Of a stretch of DNA of 64,000 nucleotides, positions 7,715 to 50,331 are shown in pieces. Each line of letters begins with the position of its first letter. The first letter of the stretch is position 1. Made by a program: the position numbers and the translations under genes. The stretch is from Apophysomyces variabilis (taxonomy: Eukaryota; Mucoromycota; Mucoromycetes; Mucorales; Mucoraceae). The DNA lies in contig MZZL01000391.1 of assembly GCA_002749535.1 (NCBI GenBank), positions 505,149 through 569,148 on the forward strand, read 5' to 3'. The notes under the pieces are model-generated. The model had not been told where the DNA came from, searched no databases, and saw only the letters and a program-made list of their open reading frames with translations.

Positions 7715-9381
7715 GACGAAGTTGGAAAAGGAACAGAAGGGCTGGATTTCCGCACTCGTCTTCCGGTTTCGTATCCCGACCTGGTATTTTCCATTTTCGG
7801 CCCTTCTTCCAATCAAATGCTCACATTTGCCAGGTCCAACCAGAACTATAGGTTTTTTACCAAAGGTTTTTGAACGTTTCACCAAAATTGTTTGAAGTAT
7901 CGAGACTCAAAATTTGAAGAATGTATAATCAAACTATGAAAAATTGGCAATAAGATATTTTGAATCAAAAGCGTGTTCTCGTTCAAAGGCAAGTGCAACT
8001 ACATCACAAAGACATAGATAACCATCTACTAATTAGAAAATAATTCTAAACGACCCAATGGTTATAACAGTTGAGGATACTGGACAATATCACCAAAAAC
8101 AGTGTAGCCGATTTTGTTTGTGTAATGCGAAACGCCAGATGTCTTTATGATGTATGGAAAGACAGTAAGTAAAGGTTAAACTTTGTTAAACATATTATTT
8201 ACCCTAGCAATAAGAAGAAAATCAGTGACAATAATAAACGTTGACAGTTTGAATTACTGAGTATTAACACATACGAGGAGGATTACATGGTGCTTAAATG
8301 AAGCCATGGTTCTCAACGTGCTGATCCTCGTTCTCAATGTCCTGTGGATCATTTCACAAACAAGATAATGGAGCCTTTGATTATTCCACTATATCTGATT
8401 CTGCATTACATGAGGTGCCATTCATAACCTCTCGTTGTGTGGAACGAATTAAATGAATCACTTCGTATATAGGAACGCTGACCGTGCCCGTAATTTCATA
8501 AAAGAACGAAACAAAAGTCAACTAGAGAAATGAAATATTTACAGTCCATTTCATATGATCCTGTTTTACTTATGCAGCGGGATCCAGAGCGCATATTAAC
8601 AGAGAGGTTAATAGTTCCATGCTACAGAAAACAATATTAAATATCATACTGTAGCAGTAAAGTCCATGAAGTATAGCATCAACAACCCTTTGTCGAACAG
8701 GGTTCACAATGCTACATCATGATTAACTCGGGTCTAGCTGAATTCGTTCTTATCGCATATACACTGGCACATGCTCCTAAATCAAGCAAATGGAACATTG
8801 TTGCCAGTGCCCGACAAAATAATCAAGTCGTTCTCTTTATATGGTCACTTTTATAGTCTACAACAAGTGCTGTCGGCAACAGGGAGTGCATACCACATCT
8901 TCTTTCTCTCTTTCTTTAGCTTTGTTGTTTTCTGTATCGTCTTGTTTGGTACACTTTCATTATTTGTACAAGGGATGAGTTTGGCTAACCTGTAGGGTCC
9001 AGATTATTAGGTACGTGGGAACTGGGTGCGGAACCTGGTTGGCACACAGCCAGAAGAAAAGTGAAAAGGTGTTTAAGCTTATTAAACGGTTTCCTCAGGG
9101 TTCCCCGTTCTAAGACTTCCTCATGATCTGTTTTCCCATGGTATGATTTGGATAAAGATATGATGTAATTCTGTGCTAGACGCAAAAAGACAACAATCAT
9201 TTTGCATTAAAAACGTGTTGTCGCGCCATTCCGTTTTCAATCACCGCTTATTGCCTTCCTCCCTCTTTCTCTTACCCTCTTCACCTCGTCTTGTTTCTTT
9301 TTTATTTTTTAAAGTGCTTTATAACTATATCAAATAACACAAGCATTTCTTGCAAGTGTCGGCGTCTACATTGACGCGGTT
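7715..9381. other. Intergenic between SEC18 and Fanzor relic
   Basis: AT-rich spacer that must hold the SEC18 promoter. A pyrimidine-rich stretch (about 9236-9300) precedes the Fanzor relic. Frames such as 8771-8995 are Phe/Leu-rich with no domain. I see no RNA gene. Confidence 0.4.
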
Positions 9382-10224
9382 ATGATTTCGATCTTCCATA
9401 AGAAAACAGTAAAACTAGCTGAACAGGCACAAGAGGCGGAGAGAAGAAAAACTGGTCTGTAATTTGGAATATGCGTTTCAGAACAGGTATTAACAAACAA
9501 TCAATATTCTCAGTGACTTGCAAAGACTGCTCTGAAGAAGGGGATTCAAACAAGCGATACAGAGCTTGTCCTCAAAACAAGAATCACGGCAGAAATCAAG
9601 GCAAGATACATCAATGCATCACCAGAACTTTGCTCACTCTCATTTTATAGTTGGAAAAAAAAGAAAGAAAATTGACAGCTGAGGAAGAAGCAGAGCATTC
9701 TAGACAAAAAACAGTGACAGGGATTCTAAGAATGAATAGACAAGGAACAAAACTCTCCTATCTATGCCATGTCCAGCCTGCGGTTCAACTGACCATGCTT
9801 CTGCAAGAAGCAGGTCTTGCACGGGTCATGCAAAAACTATAAACGAAAACGTCAATGAAGAACTTGGAAAAGATTATGAAAGATACACAAGAAGGCTACC
9901 GCTTGATTCTATCATTCGTCCAGAGCACCGTGAGGAACTCAAAAGGAAATTTACGAATCTGTGCGGTTTTTGCGCGAAGTAGTCTTCCGAGCTCAAATCT
10001 TAGCGAATGGTTACATTATCTCGAACGCCGATCAGGAAATAGTTGCATATGTTTACACACAGTCTTTCTTGTATCACATATGTCAATTAGTCCTCGATAA
10101 GAAGGTCTCCAACAAAAACTCCAACATGCCATCCGACCTACTAGGTTATTGGCCACAATTTCTTGCGGCATATCCTTCCGTAATCTTCTCTCCACAGGCC
10201 TCTTCTGGCTACAGTGATGCCTTA

Positions 10225-10247
10225 CACTATGGGAAAAAGTCGGGGAA
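10225..10247 (+). repeat. CACTA left terminal inverted repeat
   Basis: The first about 23 bp match the inverse complement of 14669-14691, with one single-base length difference in the A/G run. Recognition end for the transposase. Confidence 0.9.
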
Positions 10248-10350
10248 TAATCGGGGAAAATGGGGGAAAATGGTCCAAAATCGGGGAAAATGGGGGAAAT
10301 TAAAATCATAAGAGGTCTTCCCCTGCTAAATAGGTGAATAATAGGGGAAA
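10243..10350. repeat. CACTA left subterminal repeats
   Basis: Short G-rich units of the type CGGGGAAAATGGGGGAAA recur several times, followed by a unit AATAGGTGAATAATAGGGG that also appears near the right end. Subterminal repeats of this sort bind accessory or transposase proteins in CACTA elements; their role here is inferred. Confidence 0.7.
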
Positions 10351-10383
10351 TTTTTGACTTAGCAAAATTTTTGAACTTCTAAT

Positions 10384-13300
10384 CTATAATTTATTGATAC
10401 TACCTAATCTAAAATCATACCTGGTCATGCCAGGCCAAATGATATAGCCTTTGTTTCTATCATTAATTTTTGGCAGAATGCCTGCCAAACAGTCTAAGTC
10501 TGTAGCATTGACCACATACAGTCTGCTAGTGTTAGGAGTATTTGTAGTGGGCAAGCCCCCACTAATCACACCGTACTGGTTCATGCTTAAGTCTGTTCGC
10601 ACCCGGATCAAGCATAAAATCTTTTTGGTGCCTGCATGCTTGTGTTGGAAAAACATTATGGTCTCACCAAAAAACGTTTCCCACACCAAGCTGACTGCAC
10701 TATTTCTTCCACGACGGGCATTGGCATCGACGGCGGTGGTGATTTTGACGAAGTTTGATTTTCGATGGCTTCTTTGATTGCTCATCTCTTCGCAATAAAA
10801 AATGTTCCCTCGGACAATTACCTGGTCTGCAACAAGTATGTCGGACTGCAGGTTGCCGTCGTTACGTTCGCTGTGTCTGTCCCAGTATTGATTCAGACGT
10901 TGGTGAAGGTTGTACTGGTCATAGTCAGAGACTGCTGCAGACCGTAAATGGACTCTGAGGATGATATCCTCTCCTTCCATATTGACGGTCAAAGAATCCA
11001 CCTCAGCCTGTTCGTCATCTTCAGGCACAGCCTGTCCGTAATGCATCGCTACTGCATAATATAATAGCTCGTTTGAGGCATTCACGGAAGGAGACGCATG
11101 AGAAGTGATTCTTTTTTTCATAATACCAATCATGCGCTCCATTGGCCGTGTGCTGTACATCCTTGGCGGGCCAAGCTTTCGGATGGCTTCTGCAAGGTGC
11201 ACCAAGTAATGTTGACTGATTGTGAAAGCATTGACCGGCAAGTACTTCCGTATAAAACCATGCCAGCAGTTAATGCACCTAACAAGGCGTTTAATATATA
11301 AGCGTTTTTTTTTTTTGAATAACCCTTACCTTGAGATTTCATCAATCTCGTCTTTATCAATCTCTATCTGTAAAGCCAAGCTACATGCCTTTACGAGAGA
11401 TGACAGAGCAATGTTTGCTTGTCTGAACACATGAGCATCGAGCCTCTTGTCTCTCCTGGCTTGGGCCTGTTGCAGACTCATCTGCTCGATAAGGTATGTG
11501 GGTGCAACGTACAAAAGGAAGACCACCCAATCCACAGCGCGGACATAACCAGCTTGTATATCTATGTAATTTCATGTTTATAATACTTTCTTTAGTTTCA
11601 TCGAATCCGTATACATACCGAGGAAATACCCCTCGAACGTTGTTGGTATATGCCTTTTAGCATTTATCAAGGCAGCGCCCATCGCCGTTCTGTATTCTTT
11701 CTTTAAGAAAAACGGGCAGCTTTCCCCATAATCTCCAGAGACAATCTTCCAAAGTTGATGGCCGATGCCATGACCTATGAGGTGCATCTCATCCAAGCCA
11801 AAAAAGAAAGATCCATGGAATGATGACAGGCTGGCAAATGGTGTCCCAGTTCTTAGTCCAAAATCCTACAAGCCTATGTATTAAATGAAGAGCAATTAGC
11901 AATTATGATAACCCTTACCTTGTCACCATCCAGGAACTCAATGGCTGAACGCAACTCTGGTTCGCTACCATCTCCGGGGAAATACATCCCGCCCGTTTCT
12001 CCTCGTTCCCCCTCCTCCTTGCAATTGCGACATCCGTAAAGGGACGTGTGGCCAGCATGATTTATTAGGTCTGCGACACCTGGTATGTCACCACCTGCCA
12101 CTAACAGATGTACGCGGGCATGGACCGTCTCTGTTGTGGTCCTCACAAGCATTCCTTCTGTACCCAGTCTCTTCAATTCTGAGAGAGACGGTTTCAGGAA
12201 GCTAAAAATGTCCTTTGGCTTTTTAGGGCCAGGGAGAACTGCGATTTGGATGAGGTTCTCTTTCTTGTACCTACTTTATGTTGAGACTTTGAACCCGCTT
12301 GAGAACAAAAAACACCTACCTCTTCTCTGGTCTGAGGTTAAGAATGACTGCCATGATCAGCGTCATGCTGTATCCACCCCTCTTGAACGGGTTGAAGCCG
12401 TCGACAAACAAGGAAAGGGCTATGTCGTCCTCGCCAGAAAACAAATGCCGGATACCCTGGTACGCTTCTCCATCAAAGATATCTGTTATCCTACCCAGTT
12501 CAGCAATTCTGTCAACCCGATACCGAAGGCATTTTCTAGTCTCGGGGTTGGCCAGTTTAGCCGCCACTTGCAGGGACAAAGGAAGTTGCATCGTGGTAGC
12601 TTTAGGTATTGCTCGGGATGGATCCTTGTAACGATCTTTGCCACATTTGCACTGCTGGGTGTGTTCGTCATTGAACATCTGGCATCCGTCTTCGCACACG
12701 TCAAAGTACTTCGGCTTCACAGGGTACATTTCCTGCAAAAGCTTTTTTGATCGATAAATTGAGAGAAGCTTGTCTCTTCCCTCTACAACAGAAGATTATT
12801 TAGTACTGCTATTCAACCGAGCTGATTATGCTTATTGTATGAATTAATTACCAAATTGTGGATCAGTTACATATCCGTTTACCCACTGAATGAGACGTTC
12901 TAAGGCGTTCCGCCTGATATTGAGTTCTTTTGCAAGAACAAACAGCTCGAGGCTTTTTTTCTCAGAGTAAGTCAAGTTCCCATCAAACCGAGTAGAGAGA
13001 TCAATCTCTATCGGGCCTTCTTCTGTAGCGGCGGAAGGATCAACAGCGGGTTCTGGCATGGTAGAATCAGTGTCTGAATCCCCATTTTCACAGTCATTTT
13101 CCATGAACACATCATCTTCGCACGTATCATCGTCGTACAAAGCATCCCAAGCTTCATCTGAAGCGTTTATCTCGCTTGTTGTCTCGTTCGTATGGTCCAT
13201 AACGTTAGAAGGTGTGCTAATATACGATCAATTTACTGCGGTCTACTTTTTTCGTACATACCCCTCAGTACCCTGATTCACAGGTGCAATAACAGACCCT

Positions 13301-13449
13301 GCACGCAAATAACTGGCACTGGTCTGCTGTCGCTCAGCATGCATTCGGGCTTCTCTTGCAGCCTTAATGCGGCAGCTTTTTGTATGTTTGCGCATTTCTC
13401 TAACAGTAAAGAGATTTTTACAGGTTTCGCAAATAGATAGCTTGGTCAT
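10384..13449 (-). CDS. CACTA transposase (tnp2 / Transposase_21 type)
   Basis: Catalyses excision and insertion of the surrounding element. Multi-exon, read on the minus strand. The N-terminus has a C2HC-like finger (CETCKNLF...HTKSCRI, exon from 13449). The intron at about 13265-13215 leads to an acidic segment (DALYDDDTCEDD). Then comes the tnp2 core: YFDVCEDGCQMF and CKCGKDRYK (zinc-binding Cys), SLFVDGFNPFKRG, HAGHTSLYGCRNCKEEG and LDEMHLIGHGIGHQLW. The last large exon (11241-10384) starts LPVNAFTISQHYLVHL and GPPRMYSTRPMERMIG, which matches the DUF4218 partner domain of this family. The ORFs between junctions are open. I checked splice consensus at the first two junctions and did not fully define the rest. 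The element may be active, but no proof can be drawn from one copy. Confidence 0.88.
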
Positions 13450-13581
13450 TTTGAATGAAGCAGGCTTTTACAATGACTTTAGCAAATTAACTTTATTTCT
13501 CGTTAGGTTGTACAAGAATCACGTCATCAGCCAATATTTATTATTGCCAAGGTACCTTATTTTCTTTATTCATCTTGGAAA

Positions 13582-14291
13582 ATGCCACCTAAGAAAGCTA
13601 ATAGCAAGTCCAGTGAAGAAGAAATGAAGGCATTGGCTTACAACTTTTTCGAAGCCATAAAAGATATTAGGCAATCCTTTAATAGCAAGATTGGCGAGTT
13701 AAATAAGAAAGTGGAAGAGCTTACTGAGCTGGTTAAGACTCTCTCTGAGGAGCGTGCGTCTTGTTTCAGGGCAGCTGAAACAACGCCACAAGCACCGGTC
13801 TACGCGGCTCAGCTTATTGAGGCTCCTCATGCAAACAAGGGTATGATACGTGTCGCTGACATCAAAGACTTCATCGCGAAGCATCGGGTTGTCGCTGAGG
13901 AGCCAGATGTAGAGAGCTCGGATACCATCTACAAGGAACTTCGCAAGCGCGTCAAGGCTTGTTGTGACTCTCTTGCGGAAGAGCTCATAGCTTCAAACAA
14001 GATGGTGGACTGGCATGACCTCAGCCAGAACGACAAGCTGAGTCTGCTGAAGGCCATCGATGAGAAGGGCGAGGCGTTGCAGCTACCTATGAGGCGATGT
14101 ATGAGCTCTTGGGTAAGCAACTTCATGGCCTCTGACGCGTGGCATAATAAAGCCACCTATCTGAAAGCTGCTGCTTCACGTAAACGGTAACGATCTATTA
14201 AAAATACGATTACATTAATCACAACCATATGATTAGCTCTTTGCCAGAAGAGACAGCGAGCCAAAGGCAATCAAGAAGAAGACGTAACTAA
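13582..14291 (+). CDS. CACTA element second protein, unknown function
   Basis: Divergently transcribed from the transposase with a 132 bp gap. Two exons, 13582-14186 and 14237-14291 (219 aa plus stop), with a GT-AG intron. The N-terminus is Lys/Glu-rich with a predicted coiled coil (IGELNKKVEELTELVKTLSE). The centre is alpha-helical in character with several Cys and Trp. The spliced C-terminus ends in an Arg-rich tail (RQSRRRRN). No domain recognised. By position it resembles the accessory DNA-binding gene (tnpA-like) that many CACTA elements carry, but sequence relationship is not claimed. Confidence 0.75.
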
Positions 14292-14514
14292 AGTAAGTAT
14301 GTGCTATGATCTCAATATTACATCGCTGACGCTTTACAATAGTTATAGATAAGCTAGTTTGCTAATTTATTTATGTATGATTTATATCACGGTAAGTTGT
14401 CCATAGCAGAAAACTCGTATCCTAGTTACCATTCAAATATGAAGATAGCATTATGAAATTGTCCACACTCAATATAAACTTTATCTTGTCATCAAATCCT
14501 CAAAAGTAAAACAT

Positions 14515-14672
14515 GGGTGAATAATGGGTGGATAATGGGTGGATAATGGGTGGATAATGGGTGAATAATAGGTGAAATGTGCACATTCTGCGGTGGGGGA
14601 AAACAGGGGAAACGTGCACGTTTCCCCTGCAAAATGGGGGAAAATTTTCCCCGATTTTTCACCTATTTTCCC
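14515..14672. repeat. CACTA right subterminal tandem repeats
   Basis: At least four tandem 11 bp units of the type ATAATGGGTGG at about 14517-14575. These are followed by GC-rich inverted sequences (an AAACGTGCACGTTT palindrome at about 14609-14622) and CCCC/GGGG units mirroring the left end. Confidence 0.8.
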
Positions 14673-14691
14673 CGACCTTTTTCCCATAGTG
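14669..14691 (-). repeat. CACTA right terminal inverted repeat
   Basis: Inverse complement of the left end; the last five bases TAGTG are the CACTA terminus. Followed by the TTA duplication at 14692-14694. Confidence 0.9.
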
Positions 14692-16552
14692 TTATCGGCG
14701 GCCTGCAAGACTTTGGCAATATGTTATACCAATAACATCGTCAAAACTTTTGAGAACCGAGTGGTGCAGTATTCAATCCGCAAGTTGAAAGCAGCAGTAC
14801 CAGTAAATATGTTTGTAATCAATGGAAAAATCATAATCAACTTCGTTCTTGCTTTTTCTAGGAACTTCCTAATGGTCGTATAAAAGATCTCGCTAGGGAG
14901 TATGTCTACGAACGCGTCTGTGGCGGAGATCTCTTATGACCTGATGCAGTTCCCTTGGTCTCCACGGGTATAACCAGCGCAGTTGATTCTCTCTGTGAGG
15001 AGTTATCCATTGTCATCCCCGTCCCTGCAACGGCAGAGACCATGTCCGCTTCCCCAGGGAGGTTTGTATCGGCGCTACGTCATATCTTGAGTACCTATGA
15101 TGAAGAATATAAAAACAGCAAAGGTTCTGATGAAGAGGCACTCCCACGGCGATTCAGCCTATCACCCATGCAGTCTACAAGTGGCGACTTGCGACAATCA
15201 ATGCAAAAGCCTTATCATGCTTAACGGAATCCACTTCTGAAAGGGGGTTTGAGCCAAACACTGCCTTATTTCATACCGTCTTTGACTTTACCAAACTAGG
15301 ATGCAGAAGGTAAGATAGAGAAAAGTCGTTGATAAAAAGAATTATGACTACAGGATGCTTAGCGTTGAAGAATTGAAAAACTCCTCGGTGTATCGTGGCG
15401 TTCTCTTCACTAATCAAATTCTCTCTGACGGGTTCGCAGTTGACTTTCAGTTTGCCAGAATGTCGGTAAAGAAAGAAAGAGCTACGGTGGAGGCAGAGCT
15501 CACTGCCACCGATTTTACAGAAGAGGAGATAACTGATTATTTCCAACCGTGTGCAGTGGACCCCGCCCGATCGCAAGTGTTTACGGCCGCATATGGGTGC
15601 GGCAACAGTATACATGAAATTCGCAGATGCAGTACAAGGGAGTACTATACGTACACTGGATCCGCCGTGTGTCAAAAAAAGAATACAGGCGGAAAAGAAA
15701 GAGCAGGTATTGAGGCCATTGCGACGGATTTAGAGACTGGCAAACACTGAGTCTCGAGGTGTATGATAGCTATGTCCGTTGCACCTTTCAACATATGAAT
15801 GCGCTATTTGCGTTCTATGGGCCGTCGAAAGCAGAGAGACGATTTCGGAATTACCAGGGCCGTCAGCGCGCTCCAGAGGAAATGGTCAATATCCTGACCA
15901 ATGGAGGGAAAAAGTACAACAGAAATCGCCGTAAACACACAAAATGGAATCGCAAGCTACGTCGCGAAAATAGAAAAAAAACGAAAGAAGAAAAGACAAG
16001 CAAACCGGGATGCAACTGAGTATGTAAATCAAGTATAAACTTGTTACTGAATAACTCAATAGGAGAGCGTGTCCACCGGAGTCTGCGGTGAGATCGACTT
16101 TGTGCAAAAACAAAGGTTTTCGAAAATGGAAGCGAGCAGACTATCAAGAGTCGGAAAAGATGCCGTTCATCGTGTTCGGGGATGGGATGTTTGGCAAAGG
16201 TAGCATGAAATTGAAGGGTCACCGGAGTGGGGTAGTTGGAAAGTTATGGAAGCACATCAAGCGAAGGGAACGAAGAGGAGAGCTGGTGACTGTCAAGATG
16301 GATGAGTACCTTACTTCGTAGGTACGATACATAGATCGAACAAACGAATCATCGATTAATACGAAGCGTTTATAGGTGTGCAACAGTTGCAACAACAAAG
16401 ATATGAAGAAGATTACGACTGCAGACGGTATCTCTCGCCATGGCATAGTAGTTTGTAAACACTGTGGAGTGTTATGGCAGAGAGATATTAATGCTTGCAA
16501 AAACATTTTCTCGATCGCGCTGTCCATCTGGATTGGGGAAGGTCGATCATAA

Positions 16553-16640
16553 GGGTTCTCCCGTCTCCCGGCCCTTAACAACATCCCCAAATCGAACGGG
16601 TCTTCCCCTCGGGGAAGTTTAAATTTCTACGGTGAGTGTA
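16553..16640 (+). ncRNA. Candidate Fanzor guide-RNA (omega-RNA-like) scaffold
   Basis: Directly after the Fanzor stop codon the base composition changes to GC-rich, unlike the spacers around it. It contains a strong hairpin, CTTCCCCTCGGGGAAG at 16602-16617, and a second complementary pair, CTCCCG/CGGG (16557-16570). In TnpB and Fanzor loci the guide RNA overlaps or follows the 3' end of the nuclease gene. Position and structure fit, but there is no direct proof. Confidence 0.35.
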
Positions 16641-17240
16641 GTAGGCAATGTTTCCAGTTAGGATTTTACTGATGTTTATATTTTATAGATGCTGCCATCG
16701 GTAAGCCTTCTATCACATTTAACAGGAAGATACTCACCAAAAATTAGTGGCAAATTCTTTATCACTTTTATCTCCAAATCTTCAAACAATTTTGAGCGGA
16801 ATCTTTAAACAATTTAAGATAAAATCTTCAAAAACTTCTGAATAAACCAGTATTATATAGGATAGACTTGCCCTGCTAAACATGTATCTCTCATCAATTA
16901 GATAAAAACATATGCCTGTGTTTAATATGTGTAATGATTAGAAAGACATCCCCTTTAGCTTTGGTTTGGAAATGATGCTGGTCTTCCTTTCGTATACAAT
17001 CCATGTACATAAAAGGGCTACCGTTTTTTTTATTGATATGTATTATACACAGTTGATTCATACGAAATCTTATTTAAATTGATCTTGTCCGTGCAGGTTT
17101 TATTGACTAAACGTTCATCAATTTAATATCGATGGTTGTGATTTCTGATTCCAATGATCAGAACTATCGATGGGATAATGAATCAGACCGGAAGATAATC
17201 AACGCTATCACGTATCTCAAGTCTTTCTATCTCTCTACAA
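16641..17240. other. AT-rich flank of Fanzor relic
   Basis: No gene seen. Between about 16755 and 16840 a motif of the type AATCTTCAAACAATTT recurs imperfectly three times. No clear right end of a Fanzor-carrying transposon was found. Confidence 0.35.
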
Positions 17241-34259: not shown

Positions 34260-35286
34260 ATAAAATATGGTACTGAGATACTGCTTATAATTTTCTTCAC
34301 ATTTTACGATCATATCATTCAAATCATCGATTGCAACGGTATCTGTTGCATCAATAATTCATGAGGTCAATGTCTCATCATCTCGCAGTGATTTACGATC
34401 CACTTTGCTGATCAATAATGTCCAGAATCGCACGCAGGGATGCAAATCACACGGGATAAGCGGGATTCATAAATACTTATACCCATGATCGACGAACCTT
34501 GATTGAACAGTAGCTTGATCATCTAAAGGTACATTATTTGCCAGGATATAACATCCGCAAACACAATGTGCTGACCCATTATTGTCAACGTTTCGTTTAC
34601 AAACTTCAAATATTGCATTTGATGGCCTTATAATTTGGTAGCTGCAACTGGATGTTTATAACCCCGATTGCACAATATGCCACGAGCATTTTACGTGTTT
34701 GCTTTCGAACGTTTGCTATCTTTTCCTTGGACGACCAAGACCTTGAGACCCTCATAGACAGAGCAAAAGTTGCTTCGTCGATGAAGATACAAGTGCGAGT
34801 GTAATCCAAATCGGGTTGTGTCCAATCTCTTAAAAAAGGGTTCCGTTCGTGTAACTCATCTTCGCAGTTGGCACAATTCAACTTCGGCATATATTCAAAC
34901 GAGATATTGTACTCGTTCTTCATCAAGGTGTCAACAGATGACTTTGTAATCTGCAAATTCTCAAATTGCTGAATAAGGCTCTTCTGAATGTCATCGATTG
35001 ATGCTTCCGGATTTTTGTCTATGTAATTCCGTATACATGATATATGTTCACCAGAAAGATGCTGTTTGTTGATGTGATTTTGAGTCGTTCTTCGTTTACC
35101 CGTATTGTATTCTTTAACCCACCGTTGGACTGATCGGACAGGCACATCAAATACTTTTGCTGCTGCTCTGGCTGAAACGCATTTCTCTATCACATAGCTG
35201 ACGACCTTATTTTTTGTATCAGCTGTGTGATTTTTCATTGTAAGAAACAATAAGATAAAGAGACGAAAAAGAAAACGAGGATACAA
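34260..35286 (-). pseudogene. Decayed mariner-like transposase (inner relic)
   Basis: N-terminal helix-turn-helix region (ARAAAKVFDVPVRSVQRWVKE) and first catalytic segment TRTCIFIDEATF are intact in one frame to 34606. Beyond it the rest is degenerate but traceable: RFVDHGYKYL and FWTLLISKVDRKSLRDDE at about 34500-34390, the region that normally carries the final Glu, with stops and frame changes. Related to the IS630/Tc1 group but distinct from the 36403 transposase. Confidence 0.7.
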
Positions 35287-36402: not shown

Positions 36403-37851
36403 ATGGATCCTTGGTCTCACCGTGGCAACACTAGCGACAGCTATGATACTACTGATACAGAAAGCGAATGCGCTTCTTTGTTGAGTAAGGTTGATATTTT
36501 TGAAACCAACCCTATTAGCCATCTGGCTGGTGGAGATGGTCCTGCTTTGATGGACGTCGTTCAGTCTGAATTCAAGCAATACAATATCGCTAAGGCTGAC
36601 TGGGAGAAACAGCAACGAGACACAGGTCTGCTTCTCACTCTTATAGAATACGAGCAAATCCAGTTCCACCCACAAGAAGGCCAAGAAGCTACACCAACGA
36701 CGAAAATACCGGTTATCGATGTCCCACTTACAAACAAGCGAGAAGCATATCGAAAATATACACTTGAACAGGTCCAGTCATTAATTGCCTTGGTGATTGA
36801 GCAAGGTAAATGCCTGATTTTGTTTAAAAGCAATTGGCACTGACCAGTCATTCTCTTTGATTATTCAGGAATGACAGCTGCTGCTGCTGCACGAAAAGTA
36901 GGCATCAAGGAAAGAACTGCACAACAGTATGTTTATAAGGATCGACAGGATTCCTACTGTTGGGCGGAAAAGCGGTAATCGAAAACTGTTTGAAGAGCAC
37001 TCACAATTCCTGATCAAATATTTCGAGGATCACGTTGAGTCCACCCTTGCTCAAGCTAGGGAGAGCTTCTTGCCAACTTTCCTGGCTTGACGATTACGCT
37101 CTCTGGCTTACAAAAGCATCTTGTCAAGCATTGTCGTCTTAGTTTGAAGAAGCTGAACAAGTTGCCTGCAGTCCGAAATTCAGACCGTATTATTGATCAA
37201 CGTCACGATACCATTTTATCCTGGCTCCAGCTACAAGACTTCAATTATCTTACTACTTGCGTTTTCATTGACGAGGCTGGATTCAACCTGCACATTAAGC
37301 GTGGGTTTGGCTGGGCTCCCCGAGGTCAACCAGCCAAAGCAGTTGTGCCAACACAAAAGGGACTCAATATTACCATTATAGGCGCGATCTGCGAACGAGG
37401 TGTAGTGTCACTCATGCTACGCAAACCTAAGGTGTGCACAGCTAAAAAGAATGGAAAGACTGTCGTAACCAAAGTCGGCACAAGGACAGATGATTACCTT
37501 GCATTTATCGAAGCAGTGATGGACGTCCTGGACATCAAGAACATGAAAGGCCGTTACCTGGTGATGGATAACGCTCCTATACACAAGTCACCTCAGATTA
37601 AAGAAGCCATCCAAAATCGCGGCTATAAGCCAATGTTCCTTCCTCCATGGTCACCATTTTTAAACCCGATCGAGGAGTTTTGGTCTAAGGTCAAGGCTGG
37701 TGTCCGAAGGAGCCAACTTTCGGAAAACGGTTCCCTCAAACCTCGTCTTGTAGAGTCGACCAAATTGGTGACTCCCACAGATTGTATGGGTGGGATAAGG
37801 CATTCGCTATCATTCTTTGAACGATGCTTAGCAAAAGAAAAAGATTTATAA
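36403..37851 (+). pseudogene. Tc1/mariner (IS630-type, DD34E) transposase, frameshifted
   Basis: Exon 1 from ATG 36403 to about 36805, a GT-AG intron, then a helix-turn-helix segment (AAAAARKVGIKERTAQQYV). The catalytic core from 37087 has VFIDEAGFNLHIKRGFGW (first Asp), LVMDNAPIH (second Asp) and PPWSPFLNPIEEFWSKVKAG (Glu, 34 residues after the second Asp). The reading frame changes near 36950 and again near 37085, so the gene is broken unless these are sequence errors. Stop at 37849-37851. Confidence 0.88.
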
Positions 37852-45820: not shown

Positions 45821-48800
45821 ATGCCTACCGCCACCCAACCTAGTATTTCGGACCTGAATGAGGACGCGAGGAGCACGAGTAGTACGCTGGTGAACGGAGA
45901 AAACAGCGCGCGAAATGAAGTAGATGTAACTCAAACACAACACACGGATGAGAGACGGTCGGCTAACCAAGCAGCGACATCACCTGTCCGACTCGGGTTC
46001 GATCAAGACATTTACGAAGAGGACATTATACGTTTCTTATACTTCTCTGAAAAACGCCATGATACCAATGCTAAACCAAACCCAGCAGTACAAAGCGCAC
46101 TATTAGACTGGGTACAGTATCGTTATTAAGGATGATAAGAATACAGTTGGCTCACGTCATTGACAGCGTCTACGAGAACGGATAAAAACTGTATCAGGTA
46201 ATTATGCAGGCAGGTGATGAACTGGGTAGGCTCACGATGAAACACAGGTCTATTGGTCGTTTGCTTAAATATTGGCACCGACCCCCCGGATATTGTCAAG
46301 ACAAATCCGTGTGCAAAGTTGGAATGTTGGATTGATCCTTTCCTTCTCATACCACAGAAATCCTTAGAAGCCATCGGAAAACATCTCCATACACAATATG
46401 AAACGATTAATGGTCGTACTCGGTTTAAATTATCGCTTGATCCGTCTGTTGAGGAAACCAAAAAAGTATGCTGCCAAATGCGTCGAAATGCAAAAGAGGA
46501 ACGAATATTATTTCATTACAATGGTCATGGAGTACCAAAACCTACTGCAAGTGGCGAAATATGGGTCTTTAATCGAAATTACACACAATACATACCAGTG
46601 TCCTTGTACGACCTTCAATCATGGCTCGGGTCGCCTGTGATATACGTATGGGATTGCTCGTCAGCGGGGAATATCATCAACGCATTCAATAGATTTGCTG
46701 AAAAACGAGATAACGATGCAGTTCTAATGGCACAGCAACACCAGAGTGCTTTGCCGTCATCATCATGGCGAGATTGTATACAGCTAGCGGCTTGCGGACC
46801 GACAGAAACCCTACCGATGAATCCAGATCTACCTGCTGATGTATTCACAGCATGTCTGACAACACCAATAGAAATGTCATTAAGATGGGTTGTTATGCGG
46901 AATCCTTTATTAACGTCTAATATTACAATGGATATGGTACTCCGGTTACCCGGGCGAGCAACAGAACGACGAACCCCGTTAGGAGAGTTAAACTGGATAT
47001 TTACAGCTGTTACGGATACGATTGCTTGGTGTGTTTTGCAAGATCAACCTGAGCTTTTCAAGCGTCTGTTTAGGCAGGATTTGACTGTAGCTTCTATGTT
47101 CAGAAACTTCCTTTTGGCTGAGCGTATCATGCGGTCGTACCAATGCACCCCTATGTCGACACCCAAATTACCAAAAACGCATGATCATCCTATGTGGCAT
47201 GCTTGGGATCTCGCTGTTGATATGTGTCTCTTTCAATTACCGGCAATGCTGGCTGCCGAAGCGGGAGGACCAGCATATCAATACCAGTCTAGTACCTTTT
47301 TTGCAGAACAATTGACGGCATTTGAGGTGTGGCTCTCGGAAGGAGCAGTGAATCCAAAAATCCCAGAGCAATTGCCGATCGTGCTACAGGTGCTGCTTAG
47401 TCAGATTCATCGTTTGCGCGCGCTCCTGCTTTTGAGTCGATTTTTAGATTTGGGACCTTGGGCGGTCAATGCTGCGCTCTCAGTGGGCATTTTCCCTTAC
47501 GTTCTTAAACTTCTTCAGAGTCCAGCAGCAGAGCTCAAACCCGTGTTGGTGTTTATCTGGGCCCGTATCCTGGCTGTCGATAGATCCTGTCAGAACGATT
47601 TGCTAAAGGACCATGGTTACGCCTATTTCATCAATATCCTCACTCCGAACAATGCCATGCGAAGCATCCCCAACGTGTCTGAGCATCGTGCTATGTGCGC
47701 CTTTATCCTTTCCGTCTTCTGTACCAACTTTAGAATGGGCCAACAGGCTTGCTTACGCGGTAATGTGATATCTGCATGTTTGGCACACGTGAGGGATCCA
47801 GATCCATTGCTGAGACAATGGGTATGCCTCTGTCTGGCGCAGGTTTGGATGAACAACAGTGAAGCAAAATCGGCAGCAATAGCAGAAAATGGCCATGAAC
47901 TCCTTTGCTCCATGCTACATGATAATGTCCCCGAGGTGCGCGCATCTGCGATGTATGCCCTAGGGACTTTCTTGGGTGATGCCAATATTACGGAACAGAT
48001 AGTGAACATTGAACACAACATCGCGATATCGGCACTGGTGGTCATGTCGGATGGGTCTCCGATCGTACGCAAAGAATTTGTGATAGCATTATCTCACATT
48101 GTCAAATTAACTGGACCAGCCAGATTCTTGCAAGCGGCCAGTCAAACAATCGAAGAGGATCAATCGCAACGCTCAAATTTCGCAGATGAAAGGGGTCGGA
48201 TAGGACGTAGTCGCCAATCCGATTGGAGAGCGGCAATGGATGGTCATTTCGGATCAACAAGCTACGATTCGGTGTACGCGGTGATATGGAAAGCACTGCT
48301 GAATTTATCGGTGGACCCTCATCCTGACGTGGCCAATGCCGCCTCCACAGTTGTGGACCATATTAATTCTATGCTACTCAGTAATCCATCTATGGGAGAA
48401 TTAGCAACTTCATTAATCCGTGATACCGTCCAGCAGGCAACGAATGATCAAACAGCGAATTCAGATCGTTCGCAGCCTTTTAATACGCATGAAGATCGCA
48501 CTTCAGCAGGATCGCCGGTCCGACGCCCTGCAATGCTAACTCGATCTGTTTCTTTTGCATCGACACTTCGTACAATCTATAATTTCAGCAATATCAGCTC
48601 AACTTCGATGCATGACACTAGCAATACCAACTCCCGCTCTCACACAGATAATCCCCGCGTGGCAAGTCCAGCAACAGTCGCGCAGCGCAATGTGCTCCGG
48701 GGAAACCCACCTATGGATCCGCAGAGGAATCCAACAAGCCAATCAGATCGAACGGGTCATAAATCGACTACAGAGAATGTTCTACCTTTGACCTCAGAGT

Positions 48801-50331
48801 TTTATGACTGGAGTTGCGAATATTTTACCGAACCGCAGATAAGGGTAAGCTATTCTGTCAGTTCCAATGCGTTACTGAGCGCGATATATTAGGCGCCCGA
48901 AGCAGACGAACCAGGAAGCGTGGTTTATACCCAGAGAAAATGGCGTCGAGCAAGAAACGAAAAGATCTTGGTGGAATCAAACTCAAATAGGGCTGCTACT
49001 GGTAAGCGTAGCCTTGCTTTCTTTCTGTACAAAGTTAACACTGTCATTTACCTTAGCAACTCGATGGGATAATCAAGTTATATCTGTTTATAACGAAACA
49101 GAAGCTACGCACTTATTGTTCCATCCTTATGAATCCCATCTTGTTGCAGCGGACGCTTATAACTGTTTAGTGTACGTATGCCACTATTGAAGATAACCAG
49201 AGATCTAACTGTAACATGATCACAGAGTTTGGGATTGGAAGGCTGGCACGCCGCTCACTGTCATTGATAACCGCAACCCATCGCACAGTCGCATCACTGA
49301 TGTTAGATTTATCAACGAAGATGATGTGGCACTGTTATTGACAGCGTCAGGTATGCATAATCTTTTATCGATCCTTCCTCACTCATAGATGGGATGAAGA
49401 TGACGGTGCCGTAAGACTGTATAAAAACTATGATGGAAGTGAACAAGAGGACGCTATACTGGTTAGCGCATGGCGTGCACTAAAAGACATGGAAAGGAGT
49501 AGCTCAAGACAGAGTGGGTTGGTCTGCGAATGGCATCAGGGTAGAGGTGCTCTTTTTACAGGAGGTGATGCTCGCGTGATCAAAGTCTGGGATGCCCATC
49601 AAGAGATGTCAGTCATGGTGCGTCCAGATCCATGCTTCATCAACATCATTTGCATTAATATCTCCGTTTAGGATATTGCGACCCAGTGTACGGCATGTGT
49701 TACCAGCATAGTGAGTGATCAAATTGGTGGTAACATTGTCATTGCTGGCTTTGGAGATGGATTAATTGGCGTATACGACCGCCGCATGAGATCCAATTCT
49801 GCGTAAGAATCCAACGCTGTATCTTAGTTTTAATGCAAATTATTCACGGCAATATTTTACAGATTGGTGCAACGTTGGGATGAACATAAATCATGGATTA
49901 CTGGCATTCATCTTCAACGAGATGGTAACAGGGAGCTCATATCAGGTGGTTTCGGAGGTGATATTAAAACCTGGGATCTTCGTGAACCCAATTCTTTACG
50001 GACAATCGATGCACATACACATGCAAACATGACAGCATTGGCTTTCCACGACCAAAGTCAGACAATTGCTAGGTAAGCAATAGATAGGGGAATGGAGAGA
50101 TGGCAAAGGCCAACATAGTTCACATCAATTAAACTGTTCTTTGGTGCTAGTGCTGGTGACGACCAGGTTATCAAAATATGGGACCTCAACGGTACCAGAC
50201 TTTCGACCATTCGACCTTCTTCCGGATTCCTCGGTCAAAGGAATTCATTTACACGTGCTCTTGCATTTCATCCCAATTACAGGATTATGGCAGCTAGTGG
50301 AGATGATGGTTATATTACCGTACGAAGTTGA
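45821..50331 (+). CDS. KOG1: Raptor / Kog1, TORC1 scaffold subunit
   Basis: Raptor/Kog1/Mip1 recruits substrates to TOR kinase complex 1. Ten exons: 45821-46111, 46167-46197, 46248-48844, 48893-49001, 49057-49171, 49226-49350, 49400-49617, 49672-49802, 49863-50072, 50151-50331; sum 4008 nt, 1335 aa, the usual family size. The raptor N-terminal caspase-like domain has LLVVCLNIGTDPPDIVKT, RILFHYNGHGVPKPT and VIYVWDCSSAGNII. HEAT-like helical repeats follow (for example FILSVFCTNFRMGQQACLRG and VRASAMYALGTFLGDANI). A Ser/Thr-rich linker (about 48400-48800) leads to WD40 repeats (VWDWKAGTPLTVID, VIKVWDAHQEM, IKTWDLREPNS, VIKIWDLNGTRL). Exon 2 is only 31 nt. Another nearby AG exists before exon 7; the chosen one keeps TASDDGAVRLY in frame. 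Confidence 0.95.

Follow-up and report, generated by a model that had tools for sequence, protein, structure and literature searches.

What does an RNA-guided nuclease of the Fanzor kind do for the transposon that carries it? Fanzor's role for its host transposon is unsettled, and the question is raised by a stretch of 64,000 nucleotides from the fungus Apophysomyces variabilis (contig MZZL01000391.1 of assembly GCA_002749535.1, positions 505,149 to 569,148; the whole stretch is called the window below), in which a broken Fanzor gene had been noticed from the letters alone (the original prediction). Taken singly, the window copy is unremarkable, a decayed representative of a known kind, and the interest lies in its family, which supplies many intact and decayed copies with readable junctions. 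The family is recognizable as Fanzor1, its elements have definable limits, and it includes intact copies with a linked transposase frame, a conserved 3′ tail, a left-sided (R)CTA and four copies with junction repeats. The explanation that accounts best for all of this, and which we consider probable, is that the window holds a dead copy of a family in which Fanzor is guided to cut the empty site and the element is then copied back.

Identity of the window gene

Profile matches in the window, together with relatives whose sequence and fold resemble solved Fanzor1 structures, identify the locus as a dead member of the Fanzor1 family, and the original prediction named it correctly. The check by profile search used 15 proteins (profile A1: 14 from the database, 13 of them named, all Mucorales, and one intact sister copy) and contained no window sequence. 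It matched ten window frames, collinear with the profile from 9423 to 16549, whose E values run from 3.1e-36 to 0.0032 and are ≤ 6e-6 in nine cases; the single further frame listed had an E of 0.16. Because the lowest value in five shuffled windows was 0.079, these matches are not attributable to chance. The motifs on which the prediction had relied were all located: its two N-terminal zinc knuckles in frames 9423-9647 and 9740-9979, which fall on an overlapping stretch of the profile, its RuvC-I-like VDPARSQVFTA in frame 15319-15747, and its C-terminal CX2C...CX2C ribbon, followed by WQRDINACKNI with the RuvC-III Asp, in frame 16376-16549. RuvC-I reads AIDPGIN in the open sister copies and AVDPARS in the window copy, with Asp and Pro kept and Gly changed; among relatives this motif varies, e.g. 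DPG and DPN. The RuvC-II Glu occupies a displaced position some six residues ahead of the zinc ribbon: the sequence reads DEYLSSQVC in sister copies and, in the window, DEYLTS, an intron and then VCNSC.

That the protein should be a TnpB, a Fanzor2 or an unrelated zinc-finger protein is very improbable. The TNB-type zinc ribbon is common to TnpB relatives generally; taken alone, Pfam Cas12f1-like_TNB gave 24.7 bits on the window piece (E 2.6e-5 for frame 16376-16549), under the cut-off of 26.3, and 33.8 bits on an intact sister protein, and LaTranC was matched at E 0.017 and 0.022. Against this, Fanzor1 chains rank first by a wide gap in both sequence and fold searches, with SpuFz1 matched by sequence at E 1.9e-20 when relatives of the window protein were searched among solved structures, and the combination of DPG with a Glu beside the zinc ribbon is the stated signature of Fanzor (PMC10711439). 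The structure prediction suggested as a check was run on a Mucor relative, the window copy itself being broken; the fold of this relative matches solved Fanzor1. Weighing on the other side, this model is of modest quality (mean predicted local distance difference test score 63, predicted template modelling (TM) score 0.47) and its whole-length TM-scores to Fanzors are only 0.26-0.39. A search with the intact sister protein brought up just two relatives at E ≤ 0.001, and a second search, from the Rhizopus one of these, gave 29 matches, the query included.

Sister copies and intact units

The Apophysomyces assembly searched comprises 38.7 Mb in 126 contigs, and copy numbers from genome searches, made at E 1e-3, are lower bounds. 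The RuvC-I piece had at least 135 matches at E ≤ 0.001 (150 of 160 candidates scored). Ten of 20 copies compared are near-identical and form one sister subfamily (L009-L017 and L019). When the exon model of L009 was projected onto 14 other copies, a frame of 867 codons in seven exons proved open in L010, L012, L014 and L019, each of the six introns being GT..AG; in L014 the frame is otherwise open but the RuvC-III Asp has been lost and replaced (WDIYVL), a natural change in the catalytic site. One additional base in a homopolymer breaks the Fanzor frame of L009, L011 and L013, frameshifts lie close to its end in L016 and L017, and L015 was left unjudged owing to assembly gaps. Six older copies contain 13 to 51 stops on the same model. 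Uninterrupted copies in the same genome, as anticipated, thus exist in a sister subfamily; none was seen in the window's own subfamily among the sequence pieces examined.

L013, L017 and L019 are continuous composite units of about 7.1 kb each, in which the left repeat is followed by the DDE transposase and an inner right repeat, then by Fanzor, and an outer right repeat closes the unit. L009 has this organization too, interrupted by an assembly gap, and is 99.7-99.8% identical to L013 in two pieces; its positions 1439-1645 hold one N and a 206-base repeat that is out of place, probably artefacts of assembly at a gap, and several copies have runs of N alongside. The 466-codon transposase frame, which matches DDE_3 at E 4.3e-21, is open at a minimum of four loci, among them L009, L013 and L019, and is broken in L017; in L019 both the Fanzor and the transposase frames are open. 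In L018, L022 and L025 the left repeat is joined straight to the Fanzor part.

Motif and repeats at the junctions

Right ends terminate in ...CCAG, followed by TA and unrelated flanks. On the left, the TA is preceded by C in 33 of 38 Fanzor elements, and the base before that is A in 27 and G in 8; by comparison, C precedes 18% of the TA sites in the window, and the mirrored G after the right TA occurs in 5 of 48 copies. Of the 29 copies read on both sides, 23 have C solely on the left and one solely on the right, while three have it on both sides and two on neither. The count of 38 leaves aside nine left ends without a recognizable repeat, L062 (inner repeat), L080, L083, L089 and L100 (not starting with TA) and L013 (left hexamer gone); that of 29 leaves aside L092, L098 and C124 (left hexamer unreadable), L101 (none found) and, despite its hexamer, C70, where the C before TATTGG was read by eye. 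L094 is without a true right end. Since the left-sided RC parallels SpuFz1 of Spizellomyces punctatus, in which a conserved CA stands left of the left repeat and the measured target-adjacent motif (TAM) is CATA (PMC10432273), we predict (R)CTA as the TAM of the Apophysomyces family.

A second trait of the junctions is that the beginning of the right flank recurs at the left junction in four of the 34 copies for which both junctions were available, exactly in three and with a gap in one. The repeats measure 12 bases in L013, 12 in L089/L044, 13 in L084/L124 and 8 in L099/L033 (12 with a one-base gap; weak but retained), and the remaining copies match over at most 5. Among 1122 mismatched flank pairs, used as a control, one reached 8 and none was longer. 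All four repeat-bearing copies have C before TA, and in three the join lies within a shared run of T. L084/L124 (G000:C94:170548-172930) is a 2.3-kb element with both Fanzor-family ends and no RuvC-I match listed, and resembles the 'ghost' elements of Spizellomyces.

The left (R)CTA could instead be the target preference of the transposase, with Fanzor as a passenger and the 12-bp repeats being long target-site duplications or products of random repair, which we regard as rather unlikely. Several observations do weigh against a motif set by the nuclease. An asymmetric transposase could itself prefer a left (R)C; five of the 38 Fanzor elements have no left C, one of them, L108, carrying the motif on the right only; and C also adjoins TA beside transposase-only elements, on the left in C77 and C81 and on the right only in C93, while C79 has it on neither side and C84 not on the left, its right being unread. 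These five controls are too few to decide, and two of their left ends were read by eye; moreover, the right flank of C81 equals the inner flank of the composite, so C81 may be a decayed composite and not independent. L109 and L119 (unclear kind or without TA) and L105, L107 and L118 (right or inner ends) were excluded from the controls. Target-site duplications of up to 12 nt have also been taken as genuine (PMC10711439). Nonetheless, C on one side only is found 23 times on the left and once on the right in Fanzor elements, and a target with the two-fold symmetry of TA would favour neither side. The duplication made by Tc1/mariner transposases is TA; the copies with an intact left hexamer match their own right flank over no more than 5 bases, whereas the four copies with repeats have all lost the left hexamer or carry it in altered form, and all have a complete right end, with a single base changed in L084/L124.

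A conserved 3′ tail

Between L012 and either the window copy or L027, identity is 46-64% in exons, 43-57% in introns and 80-83% in the 235 bases past the stop; the window tail (16553..16852) is 79.7% identical to that of a subfamily with 46-62% exon identity, and a DNA search with it gave at least 41 matches (40 of 87 candidates scored). Two hairpins in the tail, one of them at the stop codon, keep 82-85% of their pairs across 30 copies and show 35 double-change cells, versus 2-11 when the whole structure was slid along the alignment, a control that is biased in their favour because the hairpins were picked by eye after the alignment had been viewed. The tail also contains an intron-like stretch (GT in 24 and AG in 27 of 30 copies, with a branch-like CTAAC), which, unlike other introns, is conserved across subfamilies (74-78% over the first 80 bases). 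On its conservation and paired changes, the tail is a likely candidate for a guide-RNA scaffold. Among other pairings considered, an outer helix and a rival long stem were rejected for little paired-change support; no double changes were seen in a third helix, GTTAG/CTAAC, for which a branch-point-like motif is the better reading. L043 and L049 keep the tail downstream of sequence that is not a recognizable Fanzor zinc ribbon, and are possible RNA-only derivatives.

The scaffold interpretation has to be set against several results. RNAalifold predicts a weak fold for the 30-copy alignment (-1.47 kcal/mol, only 12 weak pairs), folding of a single sequence gives nothing out of the ordinary (z -1.33), and most double changes, judged by eye, divide two large clades, implying few independent events. 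Subfamilies that swap 3′ ends could also make the tail look conserved, and it may thus reflect such exchange, or binding sites of the transposase, in place of a guide RNA; transposition requires the right inverted repeat to persist, copies within such families commonly recombine, and no Rfam family matches the window at gathering scores. We judge this alternative unlikely, in that the conserved tract of about 235 bases extends past the 50-94-base inverted repeat and the paired double changes exceed those of the slid structure. Furthermore, the Fanzor loci of S. punctatus express RNA from the corresponding place (PMC10432273). A guide-RNA scaffold is our preferred reading of the tail.

History of the window copy

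The original prediction placed the gene at 9382..16552. The mobile unit is longer, as alignment with L026 (left end only) and L027 sets its limits at 7847-16852, with TA at both ends, and the prediction had overlooked a separate 4467-bp CACTA-like insertion that splits the gene (Table 1). The element measures about 4.54 kb after removal of the insert. No transposase was found among the reading frames and matches listed for it, and on these features it is a non-autonomous Fanzor1 transposon with Tc1/mariner-like ends; the Tc1/mariner hallmarks seen are inverted repeats and TA at the ends, and the element is multicopy. A frame broken at several points, as had been described, is borne out by several small lesions in addition to the insertion: the reading frame changes near 9.65-9.74, 9.93-9.98, 15.13-15.22 and 15.71-15.75 kb, is interrupted by an in-frame stop ahead of 14940 and by a stop at 16319-16321 adjoining the last intron, and ends early at 16550. 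Because it differs by 8-12% from its nearest sisters and carries these lesions, the copy is not very young, and the description 'recently disabled' holds only in part, the CACTA-like insertion alone looking recent.

The insertion has CACTATGGGAAAAAG ends, is flanked by TTA on both sides (10222-10224 and 14692-14694) and is absent from the sister copies L026, L027 and L028, which are 88-92% identical to the window copy. Its minus strand holds tnp2-like (Transposase_21) and DUF4218 fragments, both Pfam matches below curated cut-offs. Its first 1101 bases occur at nine or more genomic loci, the window included, and because some of these are >95% identical, the family appears to have moved recently; another genomic copy matches at a rounded 100% over 1047 query bases. 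That copy (G000:C95:2602-4207) lies some 0.5 kb in from another Fanzor left end, and seems to be a further case of one transposon inserting into the other. A plus-strand frame within the insertion (13507-14187, 227 aa) has a best Pfam E of 0.008, with no match of note.

The assignment to an early-diverging fungus agrees with the neighbouring raptor gene (46241-48889), whose first 420 residues are 97% identical to Apophysomyces sp. BC1021 and 99% identical to A. ossiformis over 92%, placing it among proteins of Apophysomyces (Mucorales). Two further Tc1/mariner remnants lie in the window: a DDE_3 frame with stops at 37060-37848 on the plus strand (E 2e-28), 42% identical to the Fanzor-linked transposase, and a helix-turn-helix (HTH) transposase frame at 34609-35286 on the minus strand.

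Table 1. Features of the Fanzor element in the window and of its nested insertion.
Feature	Position	Strand	Basis
Fanzor1 transposon, TA at 7847-7848 and 16851-16852	7847..16852	+	Alignment with L026, L027
Left flank AC and TA, predicted target-adjacent motif ACTA	7845..7848	+	C before TA in 33/38
Left terminal inverted repeat, imperfect	7847..7897	+	Left end as in L027, L026
Fanzor fragment, first zinc knuckle (CKDC...H)	9423..9647	+	Profile E 0.0032
Fanzor fragment, second zinc knuckle (CPAC...H...C)	9740..9979	+	Profile E 2.3e-19
Fanzor fragment, shifted frame, N-terminal half	9934..10224	+	Profile E 9.3e-18, frame 9934-10308
CACTA/EnSpm-like DNA transposon, nested	10225..14691	-	Inverted ends, 4467 bp
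Fanzor fragment 3′ of insert	14692..14880	+	Profile E 4.2e-9, frame 14572-14880
Fanzor fragments, two frames, after in-frame stop	14940..15310	+	Profile E 1.7e-9, 6e-6
Fanzor fragment, RuvC-I DPA, Asp codon 15559-15561	15358..15747	+	Profile E 3.1e-36, frame 15319-15747
Fanzor fragment, middle of RuvC half	15714..16019	+	Profile E 5.3e-32
Fanzor fragment, displaced RuvC-II Glu (DEY), Glu codon 16304-16306	16055..16318	+	Profile E 1.6e-24
Fanzor fragment, zinc ribbon and RuvC-III WQRD, Asp codon 16484-16486	16376..16549	+	Profile E 2.7e-16
Conserved 3′ non-coding tail, candidate omega/guide-RNA scaffold, hairpin 16602-16617	16553..16852	+	Conservation, paired changes
Intron-like stretch in tail (GT...branch-like CTGAT...AG)	16632..16688	+	GT 24/30, AG 27/30 copies
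Right terminal inverted repeat ending ...AATAAACCAGTA	16803..16852	+	Comparison of element ends

Discussion

A close parallel is the Spu-1 element of S. punctatus, which encodes SpuFz1 and shares with the Apophysomyces family the Fanzor1 nuclease fold and catalytic layout, many copies with inverted repeats, shortened derivative elements, a pair of conserved bases beside the left repeat on its outer side (CA in Spu-1, RC in Apophysomyces) and a conserved stretch from the stop codon to the right end, which is an RNA region in Spu-1 and a candidate one in Apophysomyces (PMC10432273). The two differ in that the sections of that account used here report no transposase between the Spu-1 repeats, whereas Apophysomyces sisters carry an open DDE frame, and in gene structure, with one reading frame in the 2.1-kb Spu locus and seven exons in the Apophysomyces gene (PMC10432273). 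Mariner-type ends, TA duplications and the presence or absence of a transposase are shared with the Fanzor1 Tc/mariner elements of Bao and Jurka 2013 (PMC3627910). Parasitella parasitica PpFz1, by contrast, has a reported TAM of ATN (PMC11423790) and was absent from our sequence-search matches at the thresholds used. The logic that we propose is that of TnpB in IS200/IS605, in which the guide comes from the flank, the empty site is cut and repair restores the element (PMC11870625); that bacterial system was tested experimentally, whereas the Apophysomyces case is read from junctions in a eukaryote.

In the proposed sequence of events, the DDE transposase of intact sister units would insert the element at TA sites, and Fanzor would be translated from the seven-exon gene of such units. 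By analogy with published Fanzor systems, the 3′ tail would be transcribed into a scaffold RNA that reads through the right end, so that the flank would serve as guide. We infer that the Fanzor-RNA complex would then cut the empty site, i.e. (R)CTA followed by the right-flank sequence, and that repair from the sister chromosome would copy the element back in. The junction repeats would arise when a cut about 10-13 bp from TA, or one further away combined with trimming, was followed by copying from the right end, with the left side closed at short runs of T. Excision by the transposase alone is insufficient as an explanation, because it would not place right-flank bases on the left.

Similar duplications are known from other elements. 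In the CRe family of Chlamydomonas, duplications are absent where the 5′ end is full, but most of the remaining copies, chiefly 5′-shortened, have one of about 7-19 bp directly after the target motif, and Mucor circinelloides MCi-2 has 11-12 bp duplications with fuzzy 5′ ends (PMC3627910). There, CRe was ascribed to rolling-circle (Helitron) replication and MCi-2 was left open (PMC3627910), whereas the similar pattern in Apophysomyces belongs to a mariner-type element and is read by us as nuclease footprints. We put forward tentatively, with the balance leaning slightly against it, that the 12-13-bp repeats are footprints left in nature when Fanzor cut DNA in a living eukaryote, that the same process lies behind the Chlamydomonas and Mucor duplications, and that Fanzor is a homing device. 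Two points tell against the sequence of events set out above: junction repeats are present in just four of 34 copies, one of them imperfect, and at 10-13 bp, allowing for T runs, they fall short of the distance at which SpuFz1 cuts (16-17 on one strand and 20-21 on the other; PMC10432273), so that trimming must be assumed. Within the parts of the literature on Fanzor with homing or target site duplication that our search covered, no paper was found to make this link.

If the homing proposal is true, it would explain the 7-19-bp and 11-12-bp 'target-site duplications' and the one-ended Fanzor insertions of Chlamydomonas and Mucor, and it would mean that Fanzor keeps a cut-and-paste transposon in place. 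The family offers a TAM prediction open to testing and a footprint for which any Fanzor-bearing genome can be searched, and the question of Fanzor homing in eukaryotes can thereby be asked without a new strain.
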